In this document: piece by piece, positions 22,677 to 36,091 of the stretch
Layout of the letters: the number at the start of each line of letters is the position of its first letter
Numbering within the stretch: position 1 is the first letter of the stretch
From: Bizionia sp. M204
GTDB lineage: Bacteria > Bacteroidota > Bacteroidia > Flavobacteriales > Flavobacteriaceae
DNA length: 64,000 nt
Assembly (NCBI RefSeq): GCF_023205095.1
Contig: NZ_CP046242.1
Span: 2,283,001-2,347,000, forward strand
Direction of reading: 5' to 3'
The notes under the pieces: generated by a model
Told to the model about the DNA's origin: nothing
The model's input: the letters and a program-made list of their open reading frames with translations, nothing else
Databases searched by the model: none
Made by a program: the position numbers and the translations under genes

Positions 22677-23090
22677 TTAATGCGGCAACTTATCTTTAAG
22701 CACGCCATATACGTACGTACCTAAAATAGCCGAAGCAATAACCACCAAGATTGGCCAATAACCTGCACCTACCAAAACATACATAGGTCCAGGACAAGCT
22801 CCCGCCAATGCCCAACCTAATCCAAAAAGTGTTCCACCAATTAGGTAACGCTTAAAGCCACTTTCTTTTGCTTCAAACTGAAGCGTTTTACCGTAAAACG
22901 ATTTAATTTTGAAGCGTTTTATAACAAACGTCATCAACAAACCTAGACTTAATGCCACACCTATAATGCCATACATGTGAAAAGACTGGAATTGAAACAT
23001 TTCAAAAATACGAAACCATGACGCCGCTTCCGATTTAAACATGGTGATTCCAAAAATCACACCTATTACTAAATATATACCTGTTCTCAT
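22677..23090 (-). CDS. YeeE/YedE-type transporter, C-terminal half protein (DUF6691)
   Basis: This 137-residue protein has about four membrane spans and the motif GACPGPMYVLVGAG, whose Cys matches the sulfur-relay cysteines of YeeE/YedE thiosulfate transporters. It starts 3 bases after the partner half. Together the two small proteins appear to equal one full-length YeeE/YedE. It is placed in the sulfur island next to rhodanese and MBL genes. Confidence 0.87.
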   Translation of the reverse strand: MRTGIYLVIGVIFGITMFKSEAASWFRIFEMFQFQSFHMYGIIGVALSLGLLMTFVIKRFKIKSFYGKTLQFEAKESGFKRYLIGGTLFGLGWALAGACPGPMYVLVGAGYWPILVVIASAILGTYVYGVLKDKLPH

Positions 23091-23093
23091 TAT

Positions 23094-23651
23094 TTAAAAA
23101 ATTAAAGGGAATAATACATGAACCATTATCAAGCCTCCTAAAAAGAAACCTATAACCGTAATTAATGAAGGTAATTGTAAGTTACTCAAACCAGAAATAG
23201 CGTGACCAGAAGTACAACCGCCAGCATAACGCGCTCCAAATCCGACTAAAAAACCACCAATAATTAAAACTAACAATCCTTTGACATCCGTAAAAACATC
23301 ATTTCCAAACAATTCCGTTGGCATATAACTGGTTCCAGCACTATCAAACCCTAAAGCATTTAAGTCTGCGACGGTTTGATTACTGATAGCCACAGTATCG
23401 CTAGGTGATAAATATTCCGAAGCAATAAAGCCACCAATGACAGCTCCAATAACCACAACTAAATTCCAACGTTGGGATTTCCAATCGAAATCGAAAAAAT
23501 CTGTACGCTTTCCAGCACCTACCATACTACAAATTGTACGCAGGTTAGAGGACATTCCGAAGCGTTTATCTACCATAATGAGCAGAAACATTACTAATGC
23601 AATCATAAAGCCAGAGAAATACCAAGGCCAAGGTTCAAGGAAAAATGCCAT
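23094..23651 (-). CDS. YeeE/YedE-type transporter, N-terminal half protein
   Basis: This 185-residue inner-membrane protein has the conserved GARYAGGCTSGHAISG, with a Cys in the hairpin that relays thiosulfate or persulfide sulfur in this family. It is the first gene of the two-gene unit. A Crp/Fnr-type dyad is centred about 64 bases upstream of its ATG and is shared with the divergent desaturase-like gene. The minus-strand -7 candidates are TTTATCTG and TTTATTTG, both imperfect. Confidence 0.88.
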   Translation of the reverse strand: MAFFLEPWPWYFSGFMIALVMFLLIMVDKRFGMSSNLRTICSMVGAGKRTDFFDFDWKSQRWNLVVVIGAVIGGFIASEYLSPSDTVAISNQTVADLNALGFDSAGTSYMPTELFGNDVFTDVKGLLVLIIGGFLVGFGARYAGGCTSGHAISGLSNLQLPSLITVIGFFLGGLIMVHVLFPLIF

Positions 23652-23707
23652 GTTTTGTGTTTATTTTTTGCAAATAAACAGATAAATATTCAGGAAATTA
23701 AATCCTT

Positions 23708-23723
23708 TGTAACATTCGTTACA
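23708..23723. promoter_or_regulatory. Operator A: TGTAAC-ATTC-GTTACA
   Basis: A perfect 6+6 dyad with a 4-base centre lies in the 148-base divergent region between yedE and the desaturase-like gene. It has the 16-base geometry of Crp-type sites (TGTAA-N6-TTACA). Three near-copies occur at 26875, 28407 and 29283 before other genes of the island. In the plus direction a perfect TAACTTTG box begins 21 bases after it. Confidence 0.75.
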
Positions 23724-23744
23724 GACTTTGGTAGTTCACAAAGC

Positions 23745-23752
23745 TAACTTTG
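23745..23752 (+). promoter_or_regulatory. -7 box TAACTTTG of the desaturase-like gene
   Basis: A perfect TAnnTTTG lies 21 bases downstream of operator A, the same spacing as at operators B, C and D. A second TAACTTTG at 23775-23782, with TTG at 23750-23752 (22-base spacing), could be an alternative, operator-independent promoter for the same gene at 23800. Confidence 0.6.
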
Positions 23753-23799
23753 TAGTCATTTGCATTTTCTTCAGTAACTTTGCTTAACAATAAACGGCT

Positions 23800-24684
23800 A
23801 TGTGGAATTATATTAACGCTTTTAAGGATGCCATTCTAGGAACTTTAAATTGGACTTGGAATTCTATTATTTTCGAAGTGCCTTGGTACACTAATTATTT
23901 TTGGGGATTAATTGTTATTTCGCTATTAGTTTGGGGATTAGAAATTTTATTTCCATGGCGAAAAAACCAGGCTATTTTTAGAAAAGATTTCTGGTTAGAC
24001 GCGTTTTATATGTTTTTCAATTTCTTTATTTTCGCTATTATTATTAGTGGTGTTTATCGTTTTTTAGAAGTCGCTTTTGCAGATTTAGGTATTTCCATGA
24101 CTAGTTTAGCATTAATAGACATCAGTATTTGGCCAATGTGGGCACAGTTACTTGTTTTCTTTATTGTTCTAGATTTCGTACAGTGGTTTACACATGTTTT
24201 ATTGCATCGTTTTGAAGTCCTTTGGCGCTTTCACCAAGTACACCACAGCGTTAAAGAAATGGGGTTTGCTGCACATTTGCGCTACCATTGGATGGAGAAT
24301 ATTTTATACAAGCCATTAAAAGTTTTTGGTGTAATGATTTTGGGTGGCTTTGAACCTGAACAAGCTTACATAGTGCATTTTATTGCTATTTCTATTGGTC
24401 ATTTTAATCATTCAAATATTAAAATTACCTATGGTCCGTTAAAGTATATTTTGAATAATCCAGTAATGCATTTATACCACCATGCTTATAATTTACCCGA
24501 AGGCAAACAATTTGGTATGAATTACGGAATTAGCTTAAGTGTTTGGGATTATATGTTTAAAACAAATTATATTCCTGAAGATAGTGGTAACGTTGAATTA
24601 GGCTATGAAGGTGATGACACCATGCCAAACACGTTTATAGGACAGATGAAATATGGTTTCTCTAAAAAGGAAAAACAAGTTTAA
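23800..24684 (+). CDS. Sterol desaturase/fatty acid hydroxylase family protein
   Basis: This 294-residue membrane protein has the His clusters of the family that bind a di-iron centre: HVLLHR, FHQVHHS, the following RYHW, and HLYHH near the C-terminus. The enzymes hydroxylate or desaturate lipid chains in the membrane. The substrate is unknown. Its apparent sharing of an operator with the sulfur transporter suggests a membrane-lipid change linked to sulfur stress, which is inference. It ends exactly where the convergent methyltransferase gene ends. Confidence 0.88.
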   Translation: MWNYINAFKDAILGTLNWTWNSIIFEVPWYTNYFWGLIVISLLVWGLEILFPWRKNQAIFRKDFWLDAFYMFFNFFIFAIIISGVYRFLEVAFADLGISMTSLALIDISIWPMWAQLLVFFIVLDFVQWFTHVLLHRFEVLWRFHQVHHSVKEMGFAAHLRYHWMENILYKPLKVFGVMILGGFEPEQAYIVHFIAISIGHFNHSNIKITYGPLKYILNNPVMHLYHHAYNLPEGKQFGMNYGISLSVWDYMFKTNYIPEDSGNVELGYEGDDTMPNTFIGQMKYGFSKKEKQV

Positions 24685-25266
24685 TTACTTTTTTAGAAAC
24701 TTAATAAACAATTCGCTATCCTCGCGACTTGCCACAGAGTTATAACTAGTCTCAAATATATCTAATTCAAAATACGGTTTAAAGTACGTAATATATTCCG
24801 CTTTAGAACCCCCAAATGGTGGTCTTTCCGTAAACAACGGTTTATCAAATAATAAACCAACTAACTTTCCATTCGGGTTTAACAAACTGTGCATTTTTTT
24901 AGCGTACGCTTCGCGAAGGTTTGGATTTAATGCACAAAAAAAGGTTTGTTCAATAATTATATCGAAGGTTTCATTCATATCAAAAACATTGGTGTGCCGT
25001 AAGTTTTCACTTGGAAAACTAGGAACACGGTTTTTAAAATTATCTAATGCTGTTTTTGATAAATCGGCTATACATACATTTTTAAACCCATTTAGAAACA
25101 AGTATTCAGCTTCATAGGAATTTCCTGCTCCTGGAATGAGAATTTTAAGCGATGTATCTTTTAACTGATCGAAATATGTTTTAATTGGCAAGGACACCTC
25201 ACCTAAATCCCAACCCGTATCTTGGTTCTGATAGCGCGAATCCCAAAACGATTCAGATAAATCCAT
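24685..25266 (-). CDS. TPMT-family S-adenosylmethionine methyltransferase
   Basis: This 193-residue class I methyltransferase begins with the thiopurine-methyltransferase-like pattern (FWDSRYQNQDTGWDLGEVS) and has a SAM loop ILIPGAGNSYEAEYL. The TPMT family methylates thiols, selenols, tellurite or halides. As the last gene of the rhodanese-HMA-DUF3365-Trx unit, 3 bases after thioredoxin, methylation of sulfide or another thiol is a reasonable guess. Confidence 0.83.
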   Translation of the reverse strand: MDLSESFWDSRYQNQDTGWDLGEVSLPIKTYFDQLKDTSLKILIPGAGNSYEAEYLFLNGFKNVCIADLSKTALDNFKNRVPSFPSENLRHTNVFDMNETFDIIIEQTFFCALNPNLREAYAKKMHSLLNPNGKLVGLLFDKPLFTERPPFGGSKAEYITYFKPYFELDIFETSYNSVASREDSELFIKFLKK

Positions 25267-25269
25267 GAA

Positions 25270-25566
25270 TTACAAATGTGATTGAATTAAAGATACTAAA
25301 TCGCGTTTAGAAGCTAATCCAGATTGTCGCCATAATTGTTTTCCGTTTTTATAGAGAATAAGCGTTGGTACGCCACGAACTTTAAATTGGGCTGCTAATT
25401 GCTGGTTTTTATCCACGTCTATTTTTAAAATGGTGACATCTTCACCAAGGCTATCTTTTACGTCTTTTAAAATTGGACTCATAGTTTTACATGGTCCACA
25501 CCATTCGGCAAAAAAATCGACTAAAACAGGTTTGTCTTTATTTATTATTTCTGAAAATTTACTCAT
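25270..25566 (-). CDS. Thioredoxin
   Basis: This 98-residue protein has the full cytoplasmic thioredoxin core: FFAEWCGPCKTMSP with active-site Cys23 and Cys26, KIDVDKN, and the cis-Pro in VRGVPTLILY. It has no signal peptide. Its place in the operon suggests it reduces persulfides formed by the rhodanese proteins nearby. It is probably not the only thioredoxin of the cell. Confidence 0.92.
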   Translation of the reverse strand: MSKFSEIINKDKPVLVDFFAEWCGPCKTMSPILKDVKDSLGEDVTILKIDVDKNQQLAAQFKVRGVPTLILYKNGKQLWRQSGLASKRDLVSLIQSHL

Positions 25567-25575
25567 ATCTACATT

Positions 25576-26199
25576 TTATTTATCGAACGAAATACTCCAA
25601 ATTCCACGTACTTCATTTTCAATATACCCTATGGCTTCATCTTTTGGGTATAAAGCTTTTATACTTTTGTATACTTCTGGCGCTACCGATTTTCCATGAC
25701 ATTGTAAGCACATGGTATTGGTTTCAATTGGATAGTAAAATCTGACGCCGTTTGATGTTTCTTCAACAATAGGATCAGGATTTACACCTAACAAAAAATC
25801 TTCTTTAAATTTTGCAATATGCTGAAGCTCTAGCTCATTAGCTTGATTTCTAGGGTTTCTTGGTTTATCAGAAACACGCTTAATTTTGGCATTGTGTTTT
25901 ACAGCCATACTATCCGTTAGTGGGTAAGCGGCGATATTACAGAATTCTACAGCTGCTAACGTACCTTTTTGTTGAATCGTGCCTATTAAGTTTTTTCCCA
26001 AAACGGCTTTCGTGCTTATGGCATATTCCATCCCAATATCTGCGTAAGATTTTTCAGGCTCTATAGTTATTTCTTCTTTAGAAACTTTATTAGTTTCCTC
26101 AAATTCAATTTCTGCTTCCTTTAGTTCTGATGTTTCTGAATTTTTACAACTCACAATTACAGCGCACGCAAAAATCAACATATAATATTTACGATTCAT
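25576..26199 (-). CDS. DUF3365 (Tll0287-like) haem-binding lipoprotein
   Basis: I start at the ATG at 26199, which gives a lipoprotein signal peptide with Cys at the VIVSC box. The frame opens 24 bases earlier. The 207-residue protein ends in a DUF3365 domain holding a single c-type haem motif (CLQCHGKS) preceded by VRFYYPIETNTM. Such proteins are PAS-like redox sensors or electron carriers outside the cytoplasm. It overlaps the HMA gene by 11 bases and precedes thioredoxin by 9. Confidence 0.82.
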   Translation of the reverse strand: MNRKYYMLIFACAVIVSCKNSETSELKEAEIEFEETNKVSKEEITIEPEKSYADIGMEYAISTKAVLGKNLIGTIQQKGTLAAVEFCNIAAYPLTDSMAVKHNAKIKRVSDKPRNPRNQANELELQHIAKFKEDFLLGVNPDPIVEETSNGVRFYYPIETNTMCLQCHGKSVAPEVYKSIKALYPKDEAIGYIENEVRGIWSISFDK

Positions 26200-26467
26200 G
26201 ATTTGCCATTTTTCCGGTTGCACAACTTATAAATGACTTGGCTTTGGTTACTACTGAATTAGCCGCATCAATCTCTGGATAGCCTAAAGATTTCAGTTTT
26301 TGTTTGGCAGCCACCAAATCTGCTTCAGATGCATAATCAAAGCTCACTTCGTTAGATTCTACTGATACTGACACGTGTTCAACACCTGCAACATCTGCTA
26401 ATTTAGTTGATACCGTATGGGCACATCCACCACATTTTAAATTTTGAATTTCGAGTGTTGTTTTCAT
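26189..26467 (-). CDS. HMA-domain protein with extra cysteine tail
   Basis: This 92-residue protein is one heavy-metal-associated domain with LKCGGCAHTV (CxxC at about 12-15) and a short tail carrying one more Cys (FISCATGK). HMA proteins carry Cu+ or other soft metals. It starts one base after the rhodanese stop. In a sulfur regulon it may buffer copper, or bind persulfide through its cysteines; the sequence cannot decide. Confidence 0.85.
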   Translation of the reverse strand: MKTTLEIQNLKCGGCAHTVSTKLADVAGVEHVSVSVESNEVSFDYASEADLVAAKQKLKSLGYPEIDAANSVVTKAKSFISCATGKMANHES

Positions 26468-26468
26468 T

Positions 26469-26825
26469 TTATTTCCAGTTTAAATAACCACCTTTTAAAT
26501 CATAAATTTCCGTGAATCCCATTGCAGATAATTTGCTCGCCGCTTTTCTACTTCGCGCACCACTTCTGCAATATATATAAAGTGGTTTTTCTTTATTTAA
26601 TTTTTCAAATTGACTTTCAAAACTAGTTGCAAAAAAATCTATATTCTTCGCATTTTTAATGTGACCAGAATTATATTCGTTTGGGGTTCGAACATCAACT
26701 AACTGAACTTTTCCCTTTTCTATTTGTGTTTTGTATTCATCAACAGGTAACACTTTGAGTGCGGCGTTTTGAGCTGTACCGAACAGCATAGATATAAATG
26801 ACATAAAGATTATAATTTGTTTCAT
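26469..26825 (-). CDS. Exported single-domain rhodanese
   Basis: The frame extends to 26882, but the ATG at 26825 gives a signal peptide (KQIIIFMSFISMLFGTAQ), so I start there (118 aa). One rhodanese domain has active Cys in YIYCRSGARS. It moves sulfane sulfur between thiols in the periplasm. It is the first gene of a five-gene unit with gaps of 1, -11, 9 and 3 bases. Operator B is centred about 57 bases before its ATG. Confidence 0.88.
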   Translation of the reverse strand: MKQIIIFMSFISMLFGTAQNAALKVLPVDEYKTQIEKGKVQLVDVRTPNEYNSGHIKNAKNIDFFATSFESQFEKLNKEKPLYIYCRSGARSRKAASKLSAMGFTEIYDLKGGYLNWK

Positions 26826-26845
26826 ATGTATTCTTAATTCGTTTA

Positions 26846-26890
26846 TAAAATTACAAGGAATATTTAACCCTATACGTAACATTTGTTACT
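26846..26890 (-). promoter_or_regulatory. Operator B and -7 box of the rhodanese operon
   Basis: The dyad GTAAC-ATTT-GTTAC (26876-26889; full 16-base site 26875-26890, 10 of 12 arm bases as in operator A) is followed on the minus strand, after 21 bases, by TAATTTTA (26853 down to 26846). That is TAnnTTTG with only the last base changed. No TTG lies at the -33 place, as expected if a bound activator replaces it. Confidence 0.65.
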
Positions 26891-26892
26891 AA

Positions 26893-26918
26893 AAAAGAGT
26901 GGCTAGGACCACTCTTTT
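26893..26918 (-). terminator. Terminator of the MBL-rhodanese gene
   Basis: Perfect 10-base arms AAAAGAGTGG and CCACTCTTTT with a 6-base loop lie 23 bases past the MBL-rhodanese stop and only 2 bases from operator B. Confidence 0.8.
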
Positions 26919-26941
26919 AAATATACGGAATTTTTAATAAA

Positions 26942-28354
26942 TTACTTTAACGTAGTTGGACAAACAAAATCTGTTACTGGAATCCCTGCTTCTTTAATTG
27001 CAGCAAAACCACCTGCAATTTCTACTAAATTATGAATACCTCGACTCTTTAAAATAGAAGCGGCAATAACACTGCGGTAACCACCAGCGCAATGCACGTA
27101 AAATGTATCGTTTTTTGGAAATTCGCTTAAATGATCATTCAAAAAATCTAATGGTGTTAAATGCGCTTCGTTAATGTGAGCCGATGTAAACTCGCCTTCT
27201 TTTCTAACATCAAAAACAGGAATAGTATCTTTCTCTAAAATGTCTTTAAATTCGGTTGCAGGAATGGATTTAATAGTATCTGTTTCTTTTCCTGAATTTT
27301 TCCAAGCTTCAAAGCCTCCTTTTAAATAGCCCACTGTATAATCAAAACCAACACGAGATAAACGTGTAATAGTTTCTTCTTCTCTGCCTTGTGGCGCAAC
27401 TAATAGAATTGGTTGTTTTACATCAGCAATTAAGGCTCCTACCCAAGGGGCAAACCCACCATCAATTCCAATAAAAATAGAACGTGGAATATGACCTTTT
27501 ACATAATCATCTTGATGACGCACATCCAAAATAACAGCTTCAGTTTCATTGGCTGCCGCTTCAAACGCATCTGGCGATAAAGCTTGCGTACCCCGTTTTA
27601 AAACCACATCAATATCTTCATATCCGTCTTTATTCATCTGAACATTTAAAGGGAAATATTGTGGTGGTGGCTGTAAACCATCTGTTACTTCTTGTATAAA
27701 CTCTTCTTTAGTCATATCCGCACGCAAGGCATAATTCGTCTTCTTTTGGTCGCCAATACTACCTACGGTTTCTTTGCTTAAATTTTTTCCACATGCCGAT
27801 CCTGCACCATGAGCGGGATAAACAATAACATCGTCAGCTAAAGTCATTATTTTGGTGCGTAAGCTTTCAAATAAAATACCTGCTAACTCTTCCTGCGTCA
27901 TGCTTGCCGCTTTTTGTGCTAAATCTGGTCGACCCACATCACCTAAAAACAGGGTGTCTCCACTAAAAATAGCATAATCTTTTCCGTTCTTATCTTTTAG
28001 CAAATAGGTGGTACTTTCCATGGTATGCCCTGGTGTATGCAAAGCTGTAATGGTAATATCGCCTAATGGAAACACTTGGCCATCGGTGGCAATAACAGAA
28101 TCAAATCCTGTTGATGCGGTTGGGCCAAAAACAATTTTAGCACCACTTTCTTTAGCTAGTGTTACGTGACCACTTACAAAATCAGCATGAAAATGAGTTT
28201 CAAAAATATATTTGATTTTAGCGTTATCCTTTTTAGCACGCTCTAAATACGGTTTCACTTCGCGAAGTGGATCAATAATAGCCACTTCACCTTGGCTTTC
28301 TATATAGTAAGCACCTTGCGCTAAGCATCCTGTATATATCTGTTCAATTTTCAT
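26942..28354 (-). CDS. MBL-fold hydrolase fused to two rhodanese domains (persulfide dioxygenase-like)
   Basis: This 470-residue cytoplasmic protein starts with a metallo-beta-lactamase fold of the ETHE1/glyoxalase II group (THFHADFVSGH metal motif near residue 54, HTPGHTMEST, and FSGDTLFLGDVGRPDL). Two rhodanese domains follow. The first (about residues 258-355) has lost its active Cys (the loop reads LVAPQGREEE). The second (about 365-465) keeps it in VHCAGGYRS. Related fusions oxidise glutathione- or other low-molecular-weight persulfides. Operator C is centred about 60 bases upstream of the ATG. Confidence 0.9.
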   Translation of the reverse strand: MKIEQIYTGCLAQGAYYIESQGEVAIIDPLREVKPYLERAKKDNAKIKYIFETHFHADFVSGHVTLAKESGAKIVFGPTASTGFDSVIATDGQVFPLGDITITALHTPGHTMESTTYLLKDKNGKDYAIFSGDTLFLGDVGRPDLAQKAASMTQEELAGILFESLRTKIMTLADDVIVYPAHGAGSACGKNLSKETVGSIGDQKKTNYALRADMTKEEFIQEVTDGLQPPPQYFPLNVQMNKDGYEDIDVVLKRGTQALSPDAFEAAANETEAVILDVRHQDDYVKGHIPRSIFIGIDGGFAPWVGALIADVKQPILLVAPQGREEETITRLSRVGFDYTVGYLKGGFEAWKNSGKETDTIKSIPATEFKDILEKDTIPVFDVRKEGEFTSAHINEAHLTPLDFLNDHLSEFPKNDTFYVHCAGGYRSVIAASILKSRGIHNLVEIAGGFAAIKEAGIPVTDFVCPTTLK

Positions 28355-28377
28355 ATTTCTAACTTTTTAATATGTTG

Positions 28378-28422
28378 CAAATTTACGAATAACTGTTGAA
28401 ATAGGCAGTAACTAAAGTTACA
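28378..28422 (-). promoter_or_regulatory. Operator C and -7 box of the MBL-rhodanese gene
   Basis: The dyad AGTAAC-TAAA-GTTACA (28407-28422, 11 of 12 arm bases as in operator A) abuts the TSUP stop codon. On the minus strand a perfect TAAATTTG box (28385 down to 28378) starts 21 bases after it. A start point 5 bases past the box would put the dyad centre at -41.5, the class II activator position. Confidence 0.72.
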
Positions 28423-29229
28423 TTACGCCTTTACAAAAAATTCCATGTAGAAGATAAAAATAGCCATGGCAAAGACAAAATAACCAAAGCCTTTTTTAAG
28501 TTTTTTACCATCAATAAAGTTACCTAAATAACTTCCTATAAAAATACCAATCAATGAAATAGCTGTAAATGATAATAGAAATTTCCAATCAATTGTCATG
28601 GTTAAAGCATCACCTAGAAAAAATCCAGACAAGGCATTCATGGCTATAATAATTAAAGAAGTTGCTACGGCCACTTTTATGTCCACATTAGCCAAAAGTA
28701 CTAGCGCCGGAATAATCAAAAAACCGCCGCCTGCTCCAATCATACCCGTAATAGCACCTATAAGAAGCCCTTCAATAATAATTAAAGGATAGTTGTAAGA
28801 CACTTGCGTGTTTTCAGGTTTTAATTTCACATCTCTTAACATGGACAAAGCGGCAGGAATCATTAAAATAGAAAACATTCCGAACATAACCATTCGTCTC
28901 GTAAACTCGAAATTGCCTATTGTAAACATAACTTCGGGAAGTGCCGGAATAACAAAATGCCTAACTATTGAAATCCCAATAATTGCTGGAATACCAAAAA
29001 CAAAAGCTGTTCGCCAATCAACTAAACCTTTTTTATGCTGTTTTAAACCACCAACTAAAGCGCTAACACCTACTACAAATAAAGAATATGCTGTAGCCAC
29101 TTTTTCATTAACTAAAAATAAATAGGCCAAAGCTGGAACTGCCAAAATGGATCCACCACCACCAATTAGTCCTAATACAACACCAATTAGCAAAGCACTT
29201 ATATAGCCAAAAATTTCTAATACTTCCAT
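28423..29229 (-). CDS. TauE/SafE (TSUP) family sulfite/sulfur-compound exporter
   Basis: This 268-residue protein has about eight membrane spans, with the internally repeated TSUP motif: GVVLGLIGGGGSILAVPAL near the N-terminus and GAITGMIGAGGGFLIIPAL in the second half. Family members move sulfite, sulfoacetate or other sulfur anions across the inner membrane. Within this island it probably exports sulfite or thiosulfate made by the MBL-rhodanese protein. Operator D is centred about 61 bases upstream. Confidence 0.88.
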   Translation of the reverse strand: MEVLEIFGYISALLIGVVLGLIGGGGSILAVPALAYLFLVNEKVATAYSLFVVGVSALVGGLKQHKKGLVDWRTAFVFGIPAIIGISIVRHFVIPALPEVMFTIGNFEFTRRMVMFGMFSILMIPAALSMLRDVKLKPENTQVSYNYPLIIIEGLLIGAITGMIGAGGGFLIIPALVLLANVDIKVAVATSLIIIAMNALSGFFLGDALTMTIDWKFLLSFTAISLIGIFIGSYLGNFIDGKKLKKGFGYFVFAMAIFIFYMEFFVKA

Positions 29230-29253
29230 GGAATGGGTTTCAATTTACTAACG

Positions 29254-29298
29254 CAAATATATCCTTTTATTTAAACCGAGTTTGTAACCCAAGCTACA
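29254..29298 (-). promoter_or_regulatory. Operator D and -7 box of the TSUP gene
   Basis: The dyad TGTAAC-CCAA-GCTACA (29283-29298, 11 of 12 arm bases as in operator A) lies between the regulator's stop and the TSUP start. On the minus strand a perfect TATATTTG box (29261 down to 29254) begins 21 bases after it. There is no TTG at the -33 place. Confidence 0.72.
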
Positions 29299-29305
29299 TA
29301 GCTTG

Positions 29306-29938
29306 CTATTCTTTGTTTAGGATTATATAATTTCGGTTTAGCTGAACCTTCCCCATATTTTCTAGTTTTTTAAGTAATCGGGAAACAACCACACGGGAGG
29401 TATTCAATTCATAAGCTATGTCCTGATGCGTGCTATATATAGTATAATCTTCTGAAACACGCGCTTTTTCGTTGAGATATTTTAGCAATCGTGCATCCAT
29501 TTTCAAAAAAGCTATACTATCAATAGTATCTAACATTTCATTTAATCGGCTATGATAACTTTCAAAAACAAAATTTCTCCAACTTTTATATTTAGAGGAC
29601 CATTCTTCCATTTTCTCGATTGGAATCATAATCAATCTCGCATCTGTTTCTGCAATGGCACGAATTTCACTTTTGGTACGTCCTAAACAACAGGTTAAAG
29701 TCATAGCACAAGTATCTCCCTTTTCTAAAAAATAAAGTAATAACTCATCACCATCATTATCTTGCCTTAAAATTTTTATAGCTCCTGTGATTAGTAAAGG
29801 CATGGATTTAACATACGATCCTATTTCAATAAGTACGTCATCTTGTTTAACTTCCTTTAAAAAACCAACCTGATTTATTTCATCAAGCAAGTCTTTTTCA
29901 AAAAAATGACCATAATTATTAGTTAACTCTTCTAACAT
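29306..29938 (-). CDS. Crp/Fnr family transcriptional regulator, likely sulfur-responsive
   Basis: I start at the ATG at 29938 (210 aa). The TTG at 29962 in the same frame seems to lie within or next to a promoter-like TATATTG. The N-terminal double-stranded beta-helix (about residues 20-110) has no cAMP-type phosphate cassette; that place reads GDTCAMTLTCCLGRT, with Cys77, Cys83 and Cys84. The C-terminal winged helix (about 150-205) has recognition helix TSRVVVSRLLKKLE. Both Arg of Crp are kept, but Glu181 of Crp is replaced by Val, which fits a site other than TGTGA. It probably binds operators A-D. No copy of the dyad is seen before its own gene. Confidence 0.85.
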   Translation of the reverse strand: MLEELTNNYGHFFEKDLLDEINQVGFLKEVKQDDVLIEIGSYVKSMPLLITGAIKILRQDNDGDELLLYFLEKGDTCAMTLTCCLGRTKSEIRAIAETDARLIMIPIEKMEEWSSKYKSWRNFVFESYHSRLNEMLDTIDSIAFLKMDARLLKYLNEKARVSEDYTIYSTHQDIAYELNTSRVVVSRLLKKLENMGKVQLNRNYIILNKE

Positions 29939-30088: not shown

Positions 30089-30424
30089 ATGCAGAAAACA
30101 TATTACGACCCAGCAGACCTTAAAAAATTCGGTAAAATTTCCGAATGGAACGAAGAATTAGGTGCTAAATTTTTTGATTACTATGGAAAAGTTTTTGAGG
30201 AAGGCGCACTTTCTGAACGTGAAAAATCACTCATTGCGCTGGCTGTAGCACATACCGTTCAATGTCCGTATTGTATTGACGCATATACTGGAGACGGCTT
30301 GCAACGCGGGATAACTAAAGAAGAAATGATGGAAGCTTTGCATGTAGCTGCTGCCATAAGAGGTGGTGCATCTTTAGTGCATGGCGTGCAAATGATGAAC
30401 AAAGTAAATAAATTAGATATGTAA
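30089..30424 (+). CDS. Arsenosugar biosynthesis-associated peroxidase-like protein (AhpD/CMD family)
   Basis: This 111-residue carboxymuconolactone-decarboxylase-like protein has the redox pair CPYC (Cys59 and Cys62) in AHTVQCPYCIDAYT. It matches the AhpD-like protein regularly found with ArsM and ArsS in arsenosugar clusters. It may protect or reduce thiols in arsenic handling; its biochemical role is not established. First gene of the plus-strand cluster. A weak TACATTTC at 30047-30054 is the only promoter candidate. The 151-base gap after it shows no gene. Confidence 0.85.
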   Translation: MQKTYYDPADLKKFGKISEWNEELGAKFFDYYGKVFEEGALSEREKSLIALAVAHTVQCPYCIDAYTGDGLQRGITKEEMMEALHVAAAIRGGASLVHGVQMMNKVNKLDM

Positions 30425-30575
30425 GCTAGGCTGTTCATTCTATAAAACCAAATCTTACAAGTCGTTTAAGCTAAAGTTAAAAACACAAAGTTGGCCGTCA
30501 AGAATTGGAATTTAAAAAGGCCATAACAAGAAACGATGAAGATTAAAACTTGAACCAGAAACTTTAAACCTTAAC

Positions 30576-31631
30576 ATGATTAAATCCTTAAAGCAACAAG
30601 AAAACGCCCTGGCAGATAGCAAACGCCAATTGGAAATACTCGCCAATGGTATTTTTAAAACTGGTGAATTACCAACTTTCAAAAATAAAATAGCTGAAAG
30701 CAACCAGTTTCCTTTACAAGCTAAAAAACTAGAAATCCTTCAAATTAATGTGGGCTATATGTGCAACCAAGTTTGTACGCATTGCCACGTGGATGCTGGT
30801 CCAGACAGAAAGGAAATCATGACCAAGGAAACCATGCTGCAATGTCTAGAAGTTATAAAAAACACGGGAGCACACACCTTGGATTTAACAGGAGGCGCCC
30901 CTGAAATGAACCCAAATTTCCGTTGGTTTGTTGAGGAAGCCGCTAAAGCTGGGGTAACCGATTTTATAGTTCGATCCAATTTAACCATTATCCGAGCCAA
31001 CAAAAAGTATTTTGATTTACCAGAGTTTTTTAAAAAGCATAATGTACATGTAGTAAGCTCTATGCCACATTGGACAAAAGGTAAAACGGACAAACAACGT
31101 GGGGATGGTGTTTTTGCAAAATCTATAAAAGCGTTAAAAGAATTAAATGCGGTTGGTTACGGCATGCCAGACAGCAATTTACGTTTAGATTTAGTCTATA
31201 ATCCGTCTGGAGCTTTTTTACCAGGCAACCAAGCAGCCATGGAAAAAGATTTTAAAAAGGCGCTTTTAGAAGATTTTGATATTCAGTTTCATAATTTATT
31301 TGCCATTACCAATTTACCTATTGCGCGATTTTTAGATTATTTAATTGCCTCCGAAAATTACGAGGATTATATGTATAGTTTAGTGGAAGCTTATAATCCC
31401 TCGGCTGTTAAAAATGTAATGTGTACCAATACACTTTCCATTAGTTGGGATGGCTATTTATATGATTGTGATTTTAACCAAATGTTAAATCTACCGGTTA
31501 ATAGTTCGGTTAAACATATTTCAGAATATAATGAGGATTTACTAGAAGGTAGAAACATTATGATATCTCAACACTGCTACGGATGCACAGCAGGCGCAGG
31601 CAGCAGCTGCCAAGGTAGCGTCGTGGATTAG
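30576..31631 (+). CDS. arsS: Arsenosugar biosynthesis radical SAM protein ArsS
   Basis: This 351-residue radical SAM enzyme has its cluster motif CNQVCTHC (Cys63, Cys67, Cys70) followed by HVDAGPDR, the TGGAPEMN region, and a C-terminal DUF3641-type domain with Cys-rich ends (CYGCTAGAGSSC). In the arsenosugar route ArsS is thought to join a 5'-deoxyadenosyl group from SAM to dimethylarsinous acid made by ArsM. The flanking AhpD-like, glycosyltransferase, PNP and ArsM genes support the assignment. Confidence 0.92.
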   Translation: MIKSLKQQENALADSKRQLEILANGIFKTGELPTFKNKIAESNQFPLQAKKLEILQINVGYMCNQVCTHCHVDAGPDRKEIMTKETMLQCLEVIKNTGAHTLDLTGGAPEMNPNFRWFVEEAAKAGVTDFIVRSNLTIIRANKKYFDLPEFFKKHNVHVVSSMPHWTKGKTDKQRGDGVFAKSIKALKELNAVGYGMPDSNLRLDLVYNPSGAFLPGNQAAMEKDFKKALLEDFDIQFHNLFAITNLPIARFLDYLIASENYEDYMYSLVEAYNPSAVKNVMCTNTLSISWDGYLYDCDFNQMLNLPVNSSVKHISEYNEDLLEGRNIMISQHCYGCTAGAGSSCQGSVVD

Positions 31632-31649
31632 AATTGATAATAGCCCATT

Positions 31650-32150
31650 ATGATAAAAAAAGTCACTTATTTATTATTGTTTTTTTTAACCGTTCAAACC
31701 AGTTTGGCTCAAGATTCTTTGTCCCAGTTGTTAAAGCGGTATAACACGAAAAACATTCCCTATATTTCAGTTCAAGAGTTGGCCATGCCAAAAACCAATT
31801 ACAAAATTTTAGATGCCCGTGAACCCAATGAATACCAAGTAAGTCATTTAAATAACGCCATATTTGTTGGATATAAAGATTTTAAAATTGAAACTGTTTT
31901 AAACGAAATTCCGAATAAAAAAGACACAATAGTTGTTTATTGCTCTTTAGGAATTCGCTCTGAAGCAATTTCTAAAAAACTTAAAGACGAAGGCTATATT
32001 TCTGTTTACAATTTATACGGTGGAATTTTTGAATGGAAAAACAACGACTTCCCCGTTTATAACCGGAATAATATAGAAACAGATAGCGTTCATGCTTTTT
32101 CAAAAATGTGGGGGAAATGGTTAATGAAGGGTGAAAAGGCATACAATTAG
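31650..32150 (+). CDS. Exported rhodanese-like protein in the arsenosugar cluster
   Basis: This 166-residue protein has a signal peptide (about residues 1-20, ending TSLAQ) and one rhodanese domain with active Cys in VVYCSLGIRSE, plus a C-terminal extension of about 30 residues. It is 18 bases after arsS and 12 before the glycosyltransferase, so it is probably co-transcribed. It could supply sulfur for thio-arsenicals, or act as an arsenate-reductase-like protein; both are guesses. Confidence 0.83.
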   Translation: MIKKVTYLLLFFLTVQTSLAQDSLSQLLKRYNTKNIPYISVQELAMPKTNYKILDAREPNEYQVSHLNNAIFVGYKDFKIETVLNEIPNKKDTIVVYCSLGIRSEAISKKLKDEGYISVYNLYGGIFEWKNNDFPVYNRNNIETDSVHAFSKMWGKWLMKGEKAYN

Positions 32151-32162
32151 TATATAGCATCA

Positions 32163-32828
32163 ATGGGAATTTTATCAAAAAATAACACCAATAGCGACCA
32201 AGATCAAGTGGCTAATTTCTATTTTCCAACGTCCAAAAGTGCGCTTATTATTTTTACAAGAAATCCAGAATTAGGAAAATGTAAAACCCGATTAGCCAAA
32301 ACTATTGGTAATGAAGCGGCTTTGGAAATTTACAAACATCTATTAAAGCATACTGCAGAAACGGCAAAAAATGTATCGGTAGATCGCTATGTTTTTTATT
32401 CTGAAGCCATTCAAAAAGAGGACCTTTGGAATCCCGAATTTTTTAAAAAAAAGCTTCAAGAAGGTTCTAATTTAGGAGAGCGAATGGAGAATGCCTTTTC
32501 GAAATTGTTTCAACTAGGCTATGAAAAAGCCCTGATAATTGGCAGCGATTTATTAGATTTAAATGCCGAGATTATTTCAGAAGGATTTCAAAAATTAAAC
32601 CAAAACGATTATGTTTTGGGTCCTGCCAAGGATGGCGGTTATTATCTTTTTGGCATGAAACAATTGCACCCTAAAGTATTTAAAAACAAAGCTTGGGGAA
32701 CGGAAAGTGTTCGTAAAGACACCTTGGATGATTTACAGAATGAAGACATTCACCTATTAGAAATATTAAATGATATTGATACCTTTGAAGATATTGAAGG
32801 CATTGAATCACTAAAAAAATACTATTAA
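32163..32828 (+). CDS. TIGR04282-type arsenosugar biosynthesis glycosyltransferase (DUF2064)
   Basis: This 221-residue soluble GT-A-like protein has the DUF2064 N-terminus (IIFTRNPELGKCKTRLAKTIG), the GERM segment, and the central IIGSDLLDL and GPAKDGGYYLFG motifs. This family is named from its repeated place in arsenosugar clusters. It probably transfers a sugar or activates a sugar phosphate. It ends 4 bases before the PNP gene. Confidence 0.87.
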   Translation: MGILSKNNTNSDQDQVANFYFPTSKSALIIFTRNPELGKCKTRLAKTIGNEAALEIYKHLLKHTAETAKNVSVDRYVFYSEAIQKEDLWNPEFFKKKLQEGSNLGERMENAFSKLFQLGYEKALIIGSDLLDLNAEIISEGFQKLNQNDYVLGPAKDGGYYLFGMKQLHPKVFKNKAWGTESVRKDTLDDLQNEDIHLLEILNDIDTFEDIEGIESLKKYY

Positions 32829-32832
32829 ACTT

Positions 32833-33645
32833 ATGATGAAGTATATAACAGAAACCACAGAATATTTGCAAAGCAAAGGCTTTGAGAGTCCTGAAATAGG
32901 CATTATTCTCGGAACAGGATTAGGCAAATTAATAGAACATATTGATATTATAGCTGAAGTCAGTTATAACCACATCCCCAATTTCCCAACGGCTACGGTT
33001 GAGTTTCATAAAGGCAAACTTATTTACGGAACACTTTCCGGAAAAAAGGTAGTAGTTATGCAAGGCCGCTTTCATATTTACGAAGGCTATTCACTACAGG
33101 ATGTTGCCTATCCCGTTCGTGTTATGAAACAATTAGGCATAGAAACCTTATTAGTTTCTAATGCCTCTGGCGCCATTAATTTAGACTTTAAAAAAGGCGA
33201 ACTAATGTTAATAGATGATCATATTAATCTCCAAGGTAGTTCACCATTGGCCTTTAGAGGTGTGGAATTATTAGGCGAACGTTTTACCGATATGAGCGCA
33301 CCTTATGATGCAGATATTAATGCCAAATTTGAAGCTATTGCTAAAGACCAAGGCATTAAACTTCACAAAGGCGTTTATGCTAGCGTTGTTGGACCGCAAT
33401 TAGAAACACGTGCAGAATATAGGATGCTTAAAATTATTGGGGCTGATGCTGTTGGAATGAGTACCGTTCCAGAAATTATTGTAGCCAATCATTTGAATTT
33501 AAAGGTGGCTGCCGTGTCAGTTTTAACGGATGAGTGCGACCCAAGTAATCTAAAACCTGTTGATATTTCAGAAATTATAGAAATGGCAGGAAAAGCAGAA
33601 CCACAAATGATTACCCTTTTTAAAGAACTGATTAAAAGTTTATAA
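32833..33645 (+). CDS. Purine nucleoside phosphorylase (trimeric type)
   Basis: This 270-residue enzyme has GTGLGKL (phosphate), QGRFHIYEGY, SNASGAIN and GPQLETRAEYRM (Glu191), with Met209 in VGMSTVPE. By my alignment the base-recognition residue that is Asn243 in human PNP is Asp233 here (VLTDE). Asp at that place favours 6-aminopurines such as adenosine. In the cluster it may remove adenine from a 5'-deoxy-5'-dimethylarsinoyl-adenosine made by ArsS, leaving an arsenic-containing ribose phosphate. Ordinary purine salvage remains possible. Confidence 0.88.
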   Translation: MMKYITETTEYLQSKGFESPEIGIILGTGLGKLIEHIDIIAEVSYNHIPNFPTATVEFHKGKLIYGTLSGKKVVVMQGRFHIYEGYSLQDVAYPVRVMKQLGIETLLVSNASGAINLDFKKGELMLIDDHINLQGSSPLAFRGVELLGERFTDMSAPYDADINAKFEAIAKDQGIKLHKGVYASVVGPQLETRAEYRMLKIIGADAVGMSTVPEIIVANHLNLKVAAVSVLTDECDPSNLKPVDISEIIEMAGKAEPQMITLFKELIKSL

Positions 33646-33673
33646 TAGCAATTAACACTCGAATACTGAAACT

Positions 33674-34645
33674 ATGAGCAATTATCTTAACACCACACAC
33701 GATGTATACAAAGAAGCAGCATTAACACCAGATGTTGGTTTATGTTGCACCACGAATCCTATTTGGGAATTACCAGGGTTAAGAATCCCGAAAATCATGC
33801 AGGAAATGAACTATGGTTGTGGGTCAACTGTTCATGCACGCGATTTAACTAACAACCCTAAAATGCTCTATGTTGGTGTTGGTGGCGGCATGGAATTATT
33901 GCAGTTTTCATATTTCAACCGCAAAAAAAATGGTGTTATTGGTATTGATGTAGTCGATGAAATGTTAGAAGCATCTCGTAAAAATTTTAAAGAAGCCGAA
34001 GCTCAAAACCCATGGTTTAAAAGTGAATTTGTAGATCTTAAAAAAGGTGATGCGTTGAATCTTCCAGTTCCTGATAACAGTATTGATGTGGCTGCACAAA
34101 ATTGTTTATTCAATATTTTTAAAACAGACGATTTAAAAAAAGCCATTGCTGAAATGTATCGCGTACTCAAACCACATGGTAAATTAGTCATGAGCGATCC
34201 TACTTGTGAGCAACCCATGAATGACACCTTGCGTAACGATGACAGATTGCGCGCCCTTTGTTTAAGCGGTAGTTTGCCCATTGCAGAATATGTAAAAATG
34301 TTGACAGATGCTGGTTTTGGAACCATTGAAATTCGCGCCAGAAAACCGTATCGCATTTTGGCTCCTAACCATTACCCAACGGAAGAATTGATTTATATAG
34401 AATCTATTGAAGTAGCTGCCATAAAAGATCCCATGCCTGCAGATGGTCCGTGTATTTTTACAGGAAAAGCCGCTATTTACTATGGCGACCAAGATTTTTT
34501 TGATGATAACGCTGGACATGTACTTATTCAAAACCAACCATTAGCTATTTGTGATAAAACGGCTGGGGACTTGGCCAAATTGAATCGGAATGATATTTAT
34601 ATCAGTGAATCCACGTTTCATTATGATGGTGGTGGCTGTTGTTAA
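33674..34645 (+). CDS. arsM: Arsenite S-adenosylmethionine methyltransferase ArsM
   Basis: This 323-residue class I methyltransferase has the SAM motif LYVGVGGGMELL and arsenite-type cysteines: Cys24-Cys25 near the N-terminus, Cys49 in NYGCG, and a GGGCC C-terminal end. The cluster is the strongest evidence for its form as the arsenosugar-pathway ArsM, which methylates As(III) to the dimethyl level before ArsS acts. It follows PNP by 28 bases. Confidence 0.92.
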   Translation: MSNYLNTTHDVYKEAALTPDVGLCCTTNPIWELPGLRIPKIMQEMNYGCGSTVHARDLTNNPKMLYVGVGGGMELLQFSYFNRKKNGVIGIDVVDEMLEASRKNFKEAEAQNPWFKSEFVDLKKGDALNLPVPDNSIDVAAQNCLFNIFKTDDLKKAIAEMYRVLKPHGKLVMSDPTCEQPMNDTLRNDDRLRALCLSGSLPIAEYVKMLTDAGFGTIEIRARKPYRILAPNHYPTEELIYIESIEVAAIKDPMPADGPCIFTGKAAIYYGDQDFFDDNAGHVLIQNQPLAICDKTAGDLAKLNRNDIYISESTFHYDGGGCC

Positions 34646-34689
34646 AAAATATAGAACAAGGTTTGAACAATTACATAAAAAATAATGCT

Positions 34690-35394
34690 ATGAAAAGTCC
34701 GATATATCTTATGTTATTGCTGTTTGGCTTCAGTCTTTCGGCTTTTGGACAAACCATAAACCATTCCGGTTTTACTGAATTCTTACAAAAACATGTTACT
34801 AATAAAGGTGAAGTTGATTATAAAACTATAAAAGCAAATGATTCAGAATTAAACACCTACCTCAACCAATTTATAGCCGTTTCACCTAAAGAAAGTTGGA
34901 CAAAAAACGAAACATTAGCCTATTGGATTAACGCGTATAATGCATTTACCATAAAACTTATTATTGATAATTATCCAATTGAAAGTATTAAAGACATCAA
35001 AAATCCTTGGGATCACGAGTTTATTCCTATCAACGGCAAATTACTTTCTTTAAATTATATTGAACATGAGGTGCTTCGCAACATGAAGGAACCACGTATT
35101 CATTTTGCTATTGTTTGCGCTTCGGCTTCTTGTCCGCAATTATTAAATGAAGCCTATATACCAGAAAAATTAGACAAACAATTAACAACAGTTACAAAAC
35201 AGTTTTTGGCAGATTCATCAAAAAATAGAATTCAAAAAAACAGTCTGGAACTCTCAAAAATATTTAAATGGTTTTCGAAAGATTTTAAGGAAAACGGCAG
35301 TCTTATCACCTTTTTAAACACCTATTCAGATGTAAAAATTGCATCCGATGCTAAAATAAAGTATATAGATTATAGTTGGAAGCTAAATGATTAA
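34690..35394 (+). CDS. Exported DUF547 protein
   Basis: The frame opens at a TTG at 34639, but the ATG at 34690 gives a signal peptide (SPIYLMLLLFGFSLSAFGQ), so I start there (234 aa). DUF547 motifs are present: LAYWINAYNAFTIKLI and HFAIVCASASCPQL. DUF547 proteins often accompany arsenosugar genes in Bacteroidota. The Cys/His arrangement is papain-like in appearance, but the reaction is unknown. It overlaps the next gene by 8 bases. Confidence 0.85.
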   Translation: MKSPIYLMLLLFGFSLSAFGQTINHSGFTEFLQKHVTNKGEVDYKTIKANDSELNTYLNQFIAVSPKESWTKNETLAYWINAYNAFTIKLIIDNYPIESIKDIKNPWDHEFIPINGKLLSLNYIEHEVLRNMKEPRIHFAIVCASASCPQLLNEAYIPEKLDKQLTTVTKQFLADSSKNRIQKNSLELSKIFKWFSKDFKENGSLITFLNTYSDVKIASDAKIKYIDYSWKLND

Positions 35395-36091
35395 TTCCAT
35401 TTCCATAATTATTCCCATGCTTAATGAAGCCGAAAATATAGCTTCGGTTTTAGAACATCTATTAGAGAATTCAACTTCTAAAAATATAGCGGAAATCATC
35501 GTTGTAGATGGCGGAAGTGTGGATGGCTCACAAAACATCGTTAATAAATTTGTGCCTTCGAACAAAATTCATCTTCTAAACGCACAAAAAGGCAGAGCTA
35601 AACAAATGAATTTTGGTGCCAAACATGCCACGGGAACTATTCTCTATTTCCTCCATGCGGATTCTTTTCCGCCTAAAAATTTTGATAACCTCATAATCCA
35701 TGAAGTAACCAAAGGGAATTTAGCAGGTTGCTTCCGTTTACAGTTTGATAACAATCATTGGTGGTTACAATTAGCGGGTTGGCTCACCCAATTTTCTTGG
35801 CGTGCTAGCCGTGGTGGAGATCAAAGTCAGTTTATTACCAAACAATTATTCACCGAAATTGGTGGTTTTGATGAAAATTTCACCATTTATGAAGACAATA
35901 TTTTAATAAATGAGCTTTATTCTAGAAAGCAATTTGTGGTCATTCAAGACAAAATAAAAACGTCTGCTCGGCTTTATGATAAGCATGGTGTCTGGACATT
36001 ACAATATCATTTTTGGACCATATATATTAAAAAATGGTTTGGTGCTTCCGCAGATGAATTATATACATATTACCAAAAGTATATTTCCTAA
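35387..36091 (+). CDS. TIGR04283-type arsenosugar biosynthesis glycosyltransferase
   Basis: This 234-residue GT-A family 2 glycosyltransferase starts with SIIIPMLNEAENI. It has VVDGGSVDGS, a DxD-like LHADS, and a C-terminal RGGDQSQF/YEDNIL region. The TIGR04283 group co-occurs with ArsM and ArsS. It likely adds the glycerol-sugar part, or a further sugar, to the arsenoribose. It is the last gene that I would place firmly in the cluster. Confidence 0.87.
   Translation: MINSISIIIPMLNEAENIASVLEHLLENSTSKNIAEIIVVDGGSVDGSQNIVNKFVPSNKIHLLNAQKGRAKQMNFGAKHATGTILYFLHADSFPPKNFDNLIIHEVTKGNLAGCFRLQFDNNHWWLQLAGWLTQFSWRASRGGDQSQFITKQLFTEIGGFDENFTIYEDNILINELYSRKQFVVIQDKIKTSARLYDKHGVWTLQYHFWTIYIKKWFGASADELYTYYQKYIS

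Follow-up and report, generated by a model that had tools for sequence, protein, structure and literature searches.

How does a flavobacterium control a compact set of sulfur genes, and which regulator does it use? The question is raised by a 64,000-nucleotide stretch of Bizionia sp. M204 (contig NZ_CP046242.1, positions 2,283,001 to 2,347,000; hereafter the window, in whose numbering the island positions are given), where an island of genes for rhodanese-type proteins, sulfur transporters and an exporter carries four dyads of the form TGTAAC-N4-GTTACA and ends in a gene for a Crp/Fnr-family regulator (hereafter the island Crp). Comparison with related genomes establishes, at the level of sequence, an operator, its fixed spacing from a promoter box, a common set of target genes and co-occurrence with the Crp gene. 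We regard it as quite probable that a regulon for defence against sulfide and persulfide has its core in this island and is activated by the island Crp, a case in which a regulon is predicted from a single protein, a single operator and one constant promoter geometry.

The four dyads had been reported in a preliminary description of the locus and all are present, with 12/12 arm bases matching at operator A, 10/12 at B, 11/12 at C and 11/12 at D. The TAnnTTTG-type box said to begin 21 bases past each dyad does so exactly at all four (Table 1), and the reported absence of a -33 TTG at operators B, C and D fits as well, with only operator A of the four having a TTTG (23727-23730). Overlooked at the time was a degenerate box on the YedE side of operator A, again at 21 bases, and the two divergent promoters may therefore share a single dyad. 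The operator A dyad is also found in Bizionia relatives (loci L014-L016).

Taken alone, the dyad is weak evidence and its count is unremarkable: at two or fewer mismatches the window holds 9 matches against 3.58 expected, a number reached in 1 of 100 shuffles, and genome-wide at one mismatch or fewer there are 13 places, compared with 14 for the reversed control. The composite of dyad, spacing and box occurs in the window twice in perfect form, four times at one mismatch or fewer and five times at two or fewer, whilst the means of 200 windows simulated with a first-order Markov model were 0, 0 and 0.075, respectively, with a maximum of 0 at one mismatch or fewer. The 3.36 Mb genome has ten such places at one mismatch or fewer, four of them the island operators.

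Conservation was assessed in 80 loci that surround relatives of the Crp gene, nearly all flavobacterial, together with the window. Dyads with at most one mismatch number 202 in the 80 loci, compared with 8 for the reversed control, and the fullest 1-kb bin of dyads is the one that holds most Crp genes. Dyads of this quality in the loci and the window that lie outside crude open-reading-frame (ORF) calls and within 300 bases of a gene start, with divergent sites counted once per orientation, make up 223 intergenic dyad/orientation rows. A perfect TANNTTTG stands at a gap of 21 in 104 of these rows, and one with at most one mismatch in 172, whilst any other gap from 0 to 59 yields 0 to 5 perfect boxes. 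Both the dyads and the 21-base spacing are kept in related genomes, the check that the preliminary description had proposed; in the YedE promoters of relatives the same 21-base gap often leads to a TTnnTTTG-like box.

A logo of 177 composite sites shows conserved arms, TGTAAC and GTTAC, and a conserved TAnnTTTG box, columns that are partly circular as the sites were picked for dyad and box; the spacer columns are free of this, and positions 19 to 37 carry information of at most 0.1. Between dyad and box no TTG consensus of a -33 element appears in these sites. With T favoured at position 16 and G at position 17, the arm on the promoter side becomes GTTACTG. Logo positions 38-46 correspond to the Bacteroidota -7 box TAnnTTTG(Y), the consensus of which is given as TANNTTTGY in PMC12632263.

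The first base of the -7 box follows the dyad centre at a distance of 29.5 bases. Canonical NtcA-activated promoters of cyanobacteria, as described in PMC3898017, carry GTAN8TAC near -41.5 together with a TAN3T -10 box, and the 21-base gap and the logo reproduce that architecture. The predicted class II placement of the dyad centre, at -41.5, is geometrically sound, the centre-to-box distance being that of canonical NtcA class II promoters. The likeness to NtcA extends from the Crp-family dimer, the GTA-N8-TAC operator and the TA-N3-T element at class II distance to the recognition helix, which is STRVTVTRLL in NtcA and TSRVVVSRLL in the island Crp, and it is this NtcA-like promoter architecture together with the NtcA-like helix that argues for class II activation by a Crp dimer. 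The two differ in their company: NtcA controls nitrogen genes and responds to 2-oxoglutarate, according to the same paper, whereas the island Crp goes with sulfur genes.

The genes behind the sites are, as annotated from sequence, largely sulfur genes: MBL-rhodanese, TauE, the YedE pair, SQR-like, SulP and SorA-like. In the 223 rows, the labelled genes that follow the dyads are those for the metallo-beta-lactamase fold protein with rhodanese stretches (MBL-rhodanese, 49), the TSUP (TauE/SafE) family exporter (37), half 1 of the YedE pair (31), the fatty-acid hydroxylase (9), Crp (8), rhodanese (6), the HMA-domain protein (2) and the Tll0287-like protein (1), with 80 rows leading to unlabelled genes. 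The unlabelled targets with a box fall into clusters of DUF983 (14), SulP-type sulfate permease (12), SQR-like (8), peroxiredoxin (3) and Fe-S/NrfD (3) proteins, smaller clusters of SorA-like (2), TolC (2) and metallo-beta-lactamase (2) proteins and a lipoprotein-like pair without a Pfam match, and single targets, among which are cytochrome bd subunit I and a TlpA-like protein as well as several that have no link to sulfur. The 12 DUF983 genes listed, of the 14, lie directly upstream of the Crp gene in the relatives. A further target set was taken from 31 exact composites in 29 loci that were selected without regard to their distance from Crp, the window's own genome excluded. The first genes behind 24 of the 31 match the reference set, whilst seven do not or have no ORF; 19 are island homologues (MBL-rhodanese 8, TSUP 4, fatty-acid hydroxylase 2, Tll0287-like 2, rhodanese 2 and thioredoxin 1, the last a weak match) and five belong to the wider regulon (SulP 2, SQR-like 2, SorA-like 1).

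Outside the island the Bizionia genome holds six further near-perfect composites (at most one mismatch). Three of them share 6 kb in a second cluster (L124): one precedes genes for a peroxiredoxin, an MBL-rhodanese protein and two methyltransferases, another the gene for an SQR-like flavoprotein, and the third TolC/HlyD genes; others stand before a DUF983 gene and a thioredoxin-family gene. The preliminary description spoke of a compact sulfur regulon, and sulfur genes do stand behind the sites; SQR-like, SulP, SorA-like, peroxiredoxin and DUF983 genes widen the predicted regulon beyond what was described. The protein behind operator A that had been called desaturase-like belongs to the fatty-acid hydroxylase family (PF04116). 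One composite at 1549848, before a TonB receptor gene, is doubtful and was not counted. DUF983, whose function is unknown, recurs in the predicted regulon, and in the Bizionia genome its gene lies away from Crp with the composite kept (L125, C1 100489-100533).

Does the operator travel with the regulator? Among 299 Flavobacteriaceae genomes from 203 genera, 202 genomes in 148 genera carry the exact composite, and the reversed-control composite appears once among the matches listed. When the genomes are classed by their Crp match, the exact composite is present in 161 of the 176 whose match is strong (E ≤ 1e-75), in 37 of the 89 whose match is weaker and in 4 of the 34 that have none, the last class including 14 genomes assigned by absence from the table of Crp matches. 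Taking one genome per genus (201 genera), which controls for kinship in part only, the figures are 107/115, 25/60 and 4/26. A sample of 296 genomes across the phylum contains the exact composite in 24, all of them in the window's family, order or class, and in none of the genomes related to the window only at the level of the phylum.

The regulator gene that the preliminary description placed at the end of the island was confirmed by Pfam, with PF00027 at 38.2 bits (cutoff 27.5), PF13545 at 37.6 (27) and PF00325 at 22.3 (21), and the protein belongs to the Crp/Fnr superfamily, with a cyclic-nucleotide-binding-type domain and a Crp-type helix-turn-helix. It is 95% identical to the Crp of Bizionia algoritergicola. 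Scores against NCBIfam equivalogs fall far short for cAMP-activated CRP (49 bits, cutoff 266) and NtcA (36.8, cutoff 244.95), as does that against the FNR model (21.3, cutoff 228), and the four-cysteine 4Fe-4S set of FNR is absent, the 210 residues containing only Cys77, Cys83 and Cys84. These cysteines are nearly invariant in an alignment of 81 sequences (Cys77 81/81, Cys83 81/81, Cys84 79/81), and the recognition helix has the form [TS]SRVV[VI]SRLL in 80 of the 81 orthologues. A structure model built with 68 of the 81 Crp sequences has a predicted template modelling score (pTM) of 0.62 and its lowest confidence at residues 71-90; the three cysteines sit behind model strand 65-71, in this least certain part. 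The corresponding segment in CRP contacts the cAMP phosphate. Foldseek and VIA-align recover the Crp fold and do not separate CRP, FNR and NtcA. The best sequence match in the PDB is 3dv8, a structural-genomics Crp/Fnr protein from Eubacterium rectale with cysteines at the positions of Cys77 and Cys83 and, as a difference, isoleucine at that of Cys84; NtcA, with its similar recognition helix, is the second-best solved structure. Class II promoters of E. coli CRP and FNR have their operators centred at -41.5, with half-sites TGTGA or TTGAT, from which the TGTAAC of the island differs; the island Crp shares the fold of these proteins, whilst it is without the FNR cysteine cluster and lies far below both model cutoffs.

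A second Crp paralogue is present in 10 of the 80 loci (L028, L031, L046, L047, L050, L056, L064, L068, L077 and L090); it is 34-38% identical, carries the helix SREVISR and keeps only Cys77. Dyads of the TGTGAC/GTCACA type are found in 8 of these 10 loci, compared with 3 of the other 70.

From these comparisons we infer that the island Crp is the binding protein, that it activates, and what its target genes do biochemically. The protein encoded at 29306-29938 would bind TGTAAC-N4-GTTAC(T/A) as a dimer and act as a class II activator, its operator replacing the -33 element with the centre 29.5 bases upstream of the start of the -7 box. The SQR-like protein would turn sulfide into persulfide, the MBL-rhodanese protein (by inference persulfide-dioxygenase-like), rhodanese and thioredoxin would oxidise persulfide and move its sulfur, and TauE, the YedE pair, SulP and SorA-like proteins would export or oxidise sulfite, thiosulfate and related anions. 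The signal may be persulfide or polysulfide, which would react with Cys77, Cys83 and Cys84, a sensing step that we put forward tentatively, as somewhat short of an even chance. Only slightly less likely is the fuller proposal that the three cysteines now occupy the segment by which CRP holds its cyclic nucleotide, that their bridging by persulfide or polysulfide directly drives an allosteric switch and class II activation, and that the protein, with an evolutionary origin apart from CstR, SqrR/BigR and FisR, is the chief activator of the sulfide response in the Flavobacteriaceae.

Several observations weigh against a sulfide/persulfide-defence regulon run by the island Crp. The fatty-acid hydroxylase, DUF983, TolC and the singletons at L028, L072 and L085 have no evident sulfur link, and we know of no tie to sulfide for the fatty-acid hydroxylase, which turns up in the predicted regulon repeatedly. 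Both the SQR-like and the SorA-like proteins fall below NCBIfam cutoffs; the SQR-like flavoprotein of the second cluster matches only an SQR model, at 59.4 bits against a cutoff of 525. The Crp gene lies directly behind a dyad in only 8 of the 223 rows, so autoregulation is not general. Of the 176 genomes whose Crp match is strong, 15 have no exact composite, and 4 of the 34 without a match do have one; the control for kinship is, as said, partial. At three or fewer mismatches the Bizionia genome shows no enrichment of the composite, with 45 places below the 68 of the reversed control, so weak sites cannot be called and a wider regulon drawn at that threshold was rejected. The argument for the cysteines as sensors consists in their conservation, and the Bizionia genome itself holds other Crp-family candidates, seven in a first look, one of them at E ≤ 1e-40. 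Finally, the Crp of locus L033 (10001-10633), the only orthologue whose recognition helix contains glutamate, has the helix TSREVISRLL, yet adjoins ordinary TGTAAC dyads. A helix code in which valine reads A and glutamate reads G was rejected, as this protein has the glutamate and ordinary sites, and the link of helix to half-site therefore stays a correlation.

The alternative that survives best leaves the regulon and its class II promoters in place and changes the signal, which might be oxygen, nitric oxide, sulfite, thiosulfate, a nucleotide or a thiol such as glutathione; we consider this possible, if doubtful. Crp-family members sense many ligands, and the Cys77 that the second Crp keeps without Cys83 and Cys84, together with the two cysteines of 3dv8, indicates that cysteines at those positions are not unique to sulfur loci. 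A sulfur signal is favoured by targets that are mostly sulfur genes and by three cysteines that hardly vary. It is unlikely that another Crp/Fnr paralogue binds the operators, with the island Crp merely nearby: the further candidates in the genome and the second Crp among the same genes in relatives would allow it, but the exact composites track the island-type Crp across the family, and most loci with a second Crp carry a different, TGTGAC-type half-site. Repression by Crp that sulfide relieves, as with CstR or BigR, has precedent, for PMC7315123 and PMC9774590 name these two repressors among the persulfide-responsive regulators of similar gene sets; here the dyad sits upstream of the -7 box rather than over it, at class II distance and with no -33 element to be seen, which makes a repressor very improbable. 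That the dyads are chance products of A+T-rich intergenic DNA, as their unremarkable counts in window and genome by themselves would permit, we reject on the fixed gap, the conservation among relatives and the four composites in the window against none in 200 simulated ones, and the dyad alone would not have sufficed for this.

Activation by the island Crp would set the locus apart from known systems with similar genes. The cst operon of Staphylococcus aureus (CstR) and the FisR/BigR systems of Acinetobacter baumannii have a similar gene content, with SQR, persulfide dioxygenase, TauE and YeeE/YedE (PMC7315123 and PMC9774590); here near-perfect composites stand before MBL-rhodanese, TauE and, in the second cluster, the SQR-like flavoprotein. 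The kind of regulator is different: those papers describe CstR as a CsoR-like repressor, FisR as a sigma-54-dependent activator and BigR as a repressor, whilst the candidate here is a Crp-family activator. The island regulator is Crp-type and not of the CsoR family to which CstR belongs, and no CsoR search was made elsewhere in the genome. Among the hits listed by searches of the open-access literature we found neither an account of a Bacteroidota Crp/Fnr sulfide regulon nor a regulator of sulfide handling in flavobacteria. Flavobacteria, which are abundant and degrade algal material, encounter sulfide in sediments and on particles. If the proposed regulation is true, it would reveal Bacteroidota-type promoters that depend on an activator and in which the operator substitutes for the -33 element, and the Crp superfamily would gain a candidate for a new class of sulfane-sulfur sensor.

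The features of the island are collected in Table 1. For the first rhodanese the start given is the ATG behind the box and not the longer mechanical ORF start.

Table 1. Predicted operators, promoter boxes and genes of the island (window positions; operators B, C and D in minus-strand reading)
Feature	Position	Strand	Sequence or family match	Remarks
YeeE/YedE-type sulfur transporter, half 2	22677..23090	-		weak NCBIfam YedE matches far below cutoff only
YeeE/YedE-type sulfur transporter, half 1	23094..23651	-	PF04143	TsuA model match far below cutoff
Degenerate -7 box	23679..23686	-	TTTATCTG	YedE-pair promoter; 21 bases from operator A
Operator A	23708..23723	.	TGTAACATTCGTTACA	between divergent fatty-acid hydroxylase and YedE-pair genes
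-7 box	23745..23752	+	TAACTTTG	fatty-acid hydroxylase promoter; 21 bases from operator A
Fatty-acid hydroxylase family protein	23800..24684	+	PF04116	
TPMT-like S-methyltransferase	24685..25266	-	PF05724	
Thioredoxin	25270..25566	-	PF00085	
Tll0287-like protein	25576..26199	-	PF11845	
HMA-domain protein	26189..26467	-	PF00403	
Rhodanese	26469..26825	-	PF00581	first of five-gene run
-7 box	26846..26853	-	TAATTTTA	rhodanese-HMA-Tll0287-Trx-TPMT operon; 21 bases from operator B
Operator B	26875..26890	-	AGTAACAAATGTTACG	
Metallo-beta-lactamase fold protein with two rhodanese stretches	26942..28354	-	PF00753, PF00581	
-7 box	28378..28385	-	TAAATTTG	MBL-rhodanese promoter; 21 bases from operator C
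Operator C	28407..28422	-	TGTAACTTTAGTTACT	before MBL-rhodanese
TSUP (TauE/SafE) family exporter	28423..29229	-	PF01925	
-7 box	29254..29261	-	TATATTTG	TSUP promoter; 21 bases from operator D
Operator D	29283..29298	-	TGTAGCTTGGGTTACA	before TSUP
Crp/Fnr-family regulator	29306..29938	-	PF00027, PF13545, PF00325	210 aa; Cys77/Cys83/Cys84; helix TSRVVVSRLL; proposed activator

Beyond the Crp gene a run of plus-strand genes (window 30089-36091), including a CMD family gene and a radical-SAM/DUF3641 gene, is kept in Bizionia and Hanstruepera; its other members we take to include a rhodanese, a phosphorylase and an ArsM-like methyltransferase, and the run looks arsenic-related. In six of the loci with a second Crp a gene of 69-73 aa lies no more than 200 bases away on the plus side; the single one scanned is YgaP-TM-like. 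A perfect TGTAAC-N4-GTTACA dyad at C1 2518018-2518033 (L128), directly behind a large ORF, is absent from the list of composites and was left aside; the gene downstream of it is presumably efflux-pump-like.

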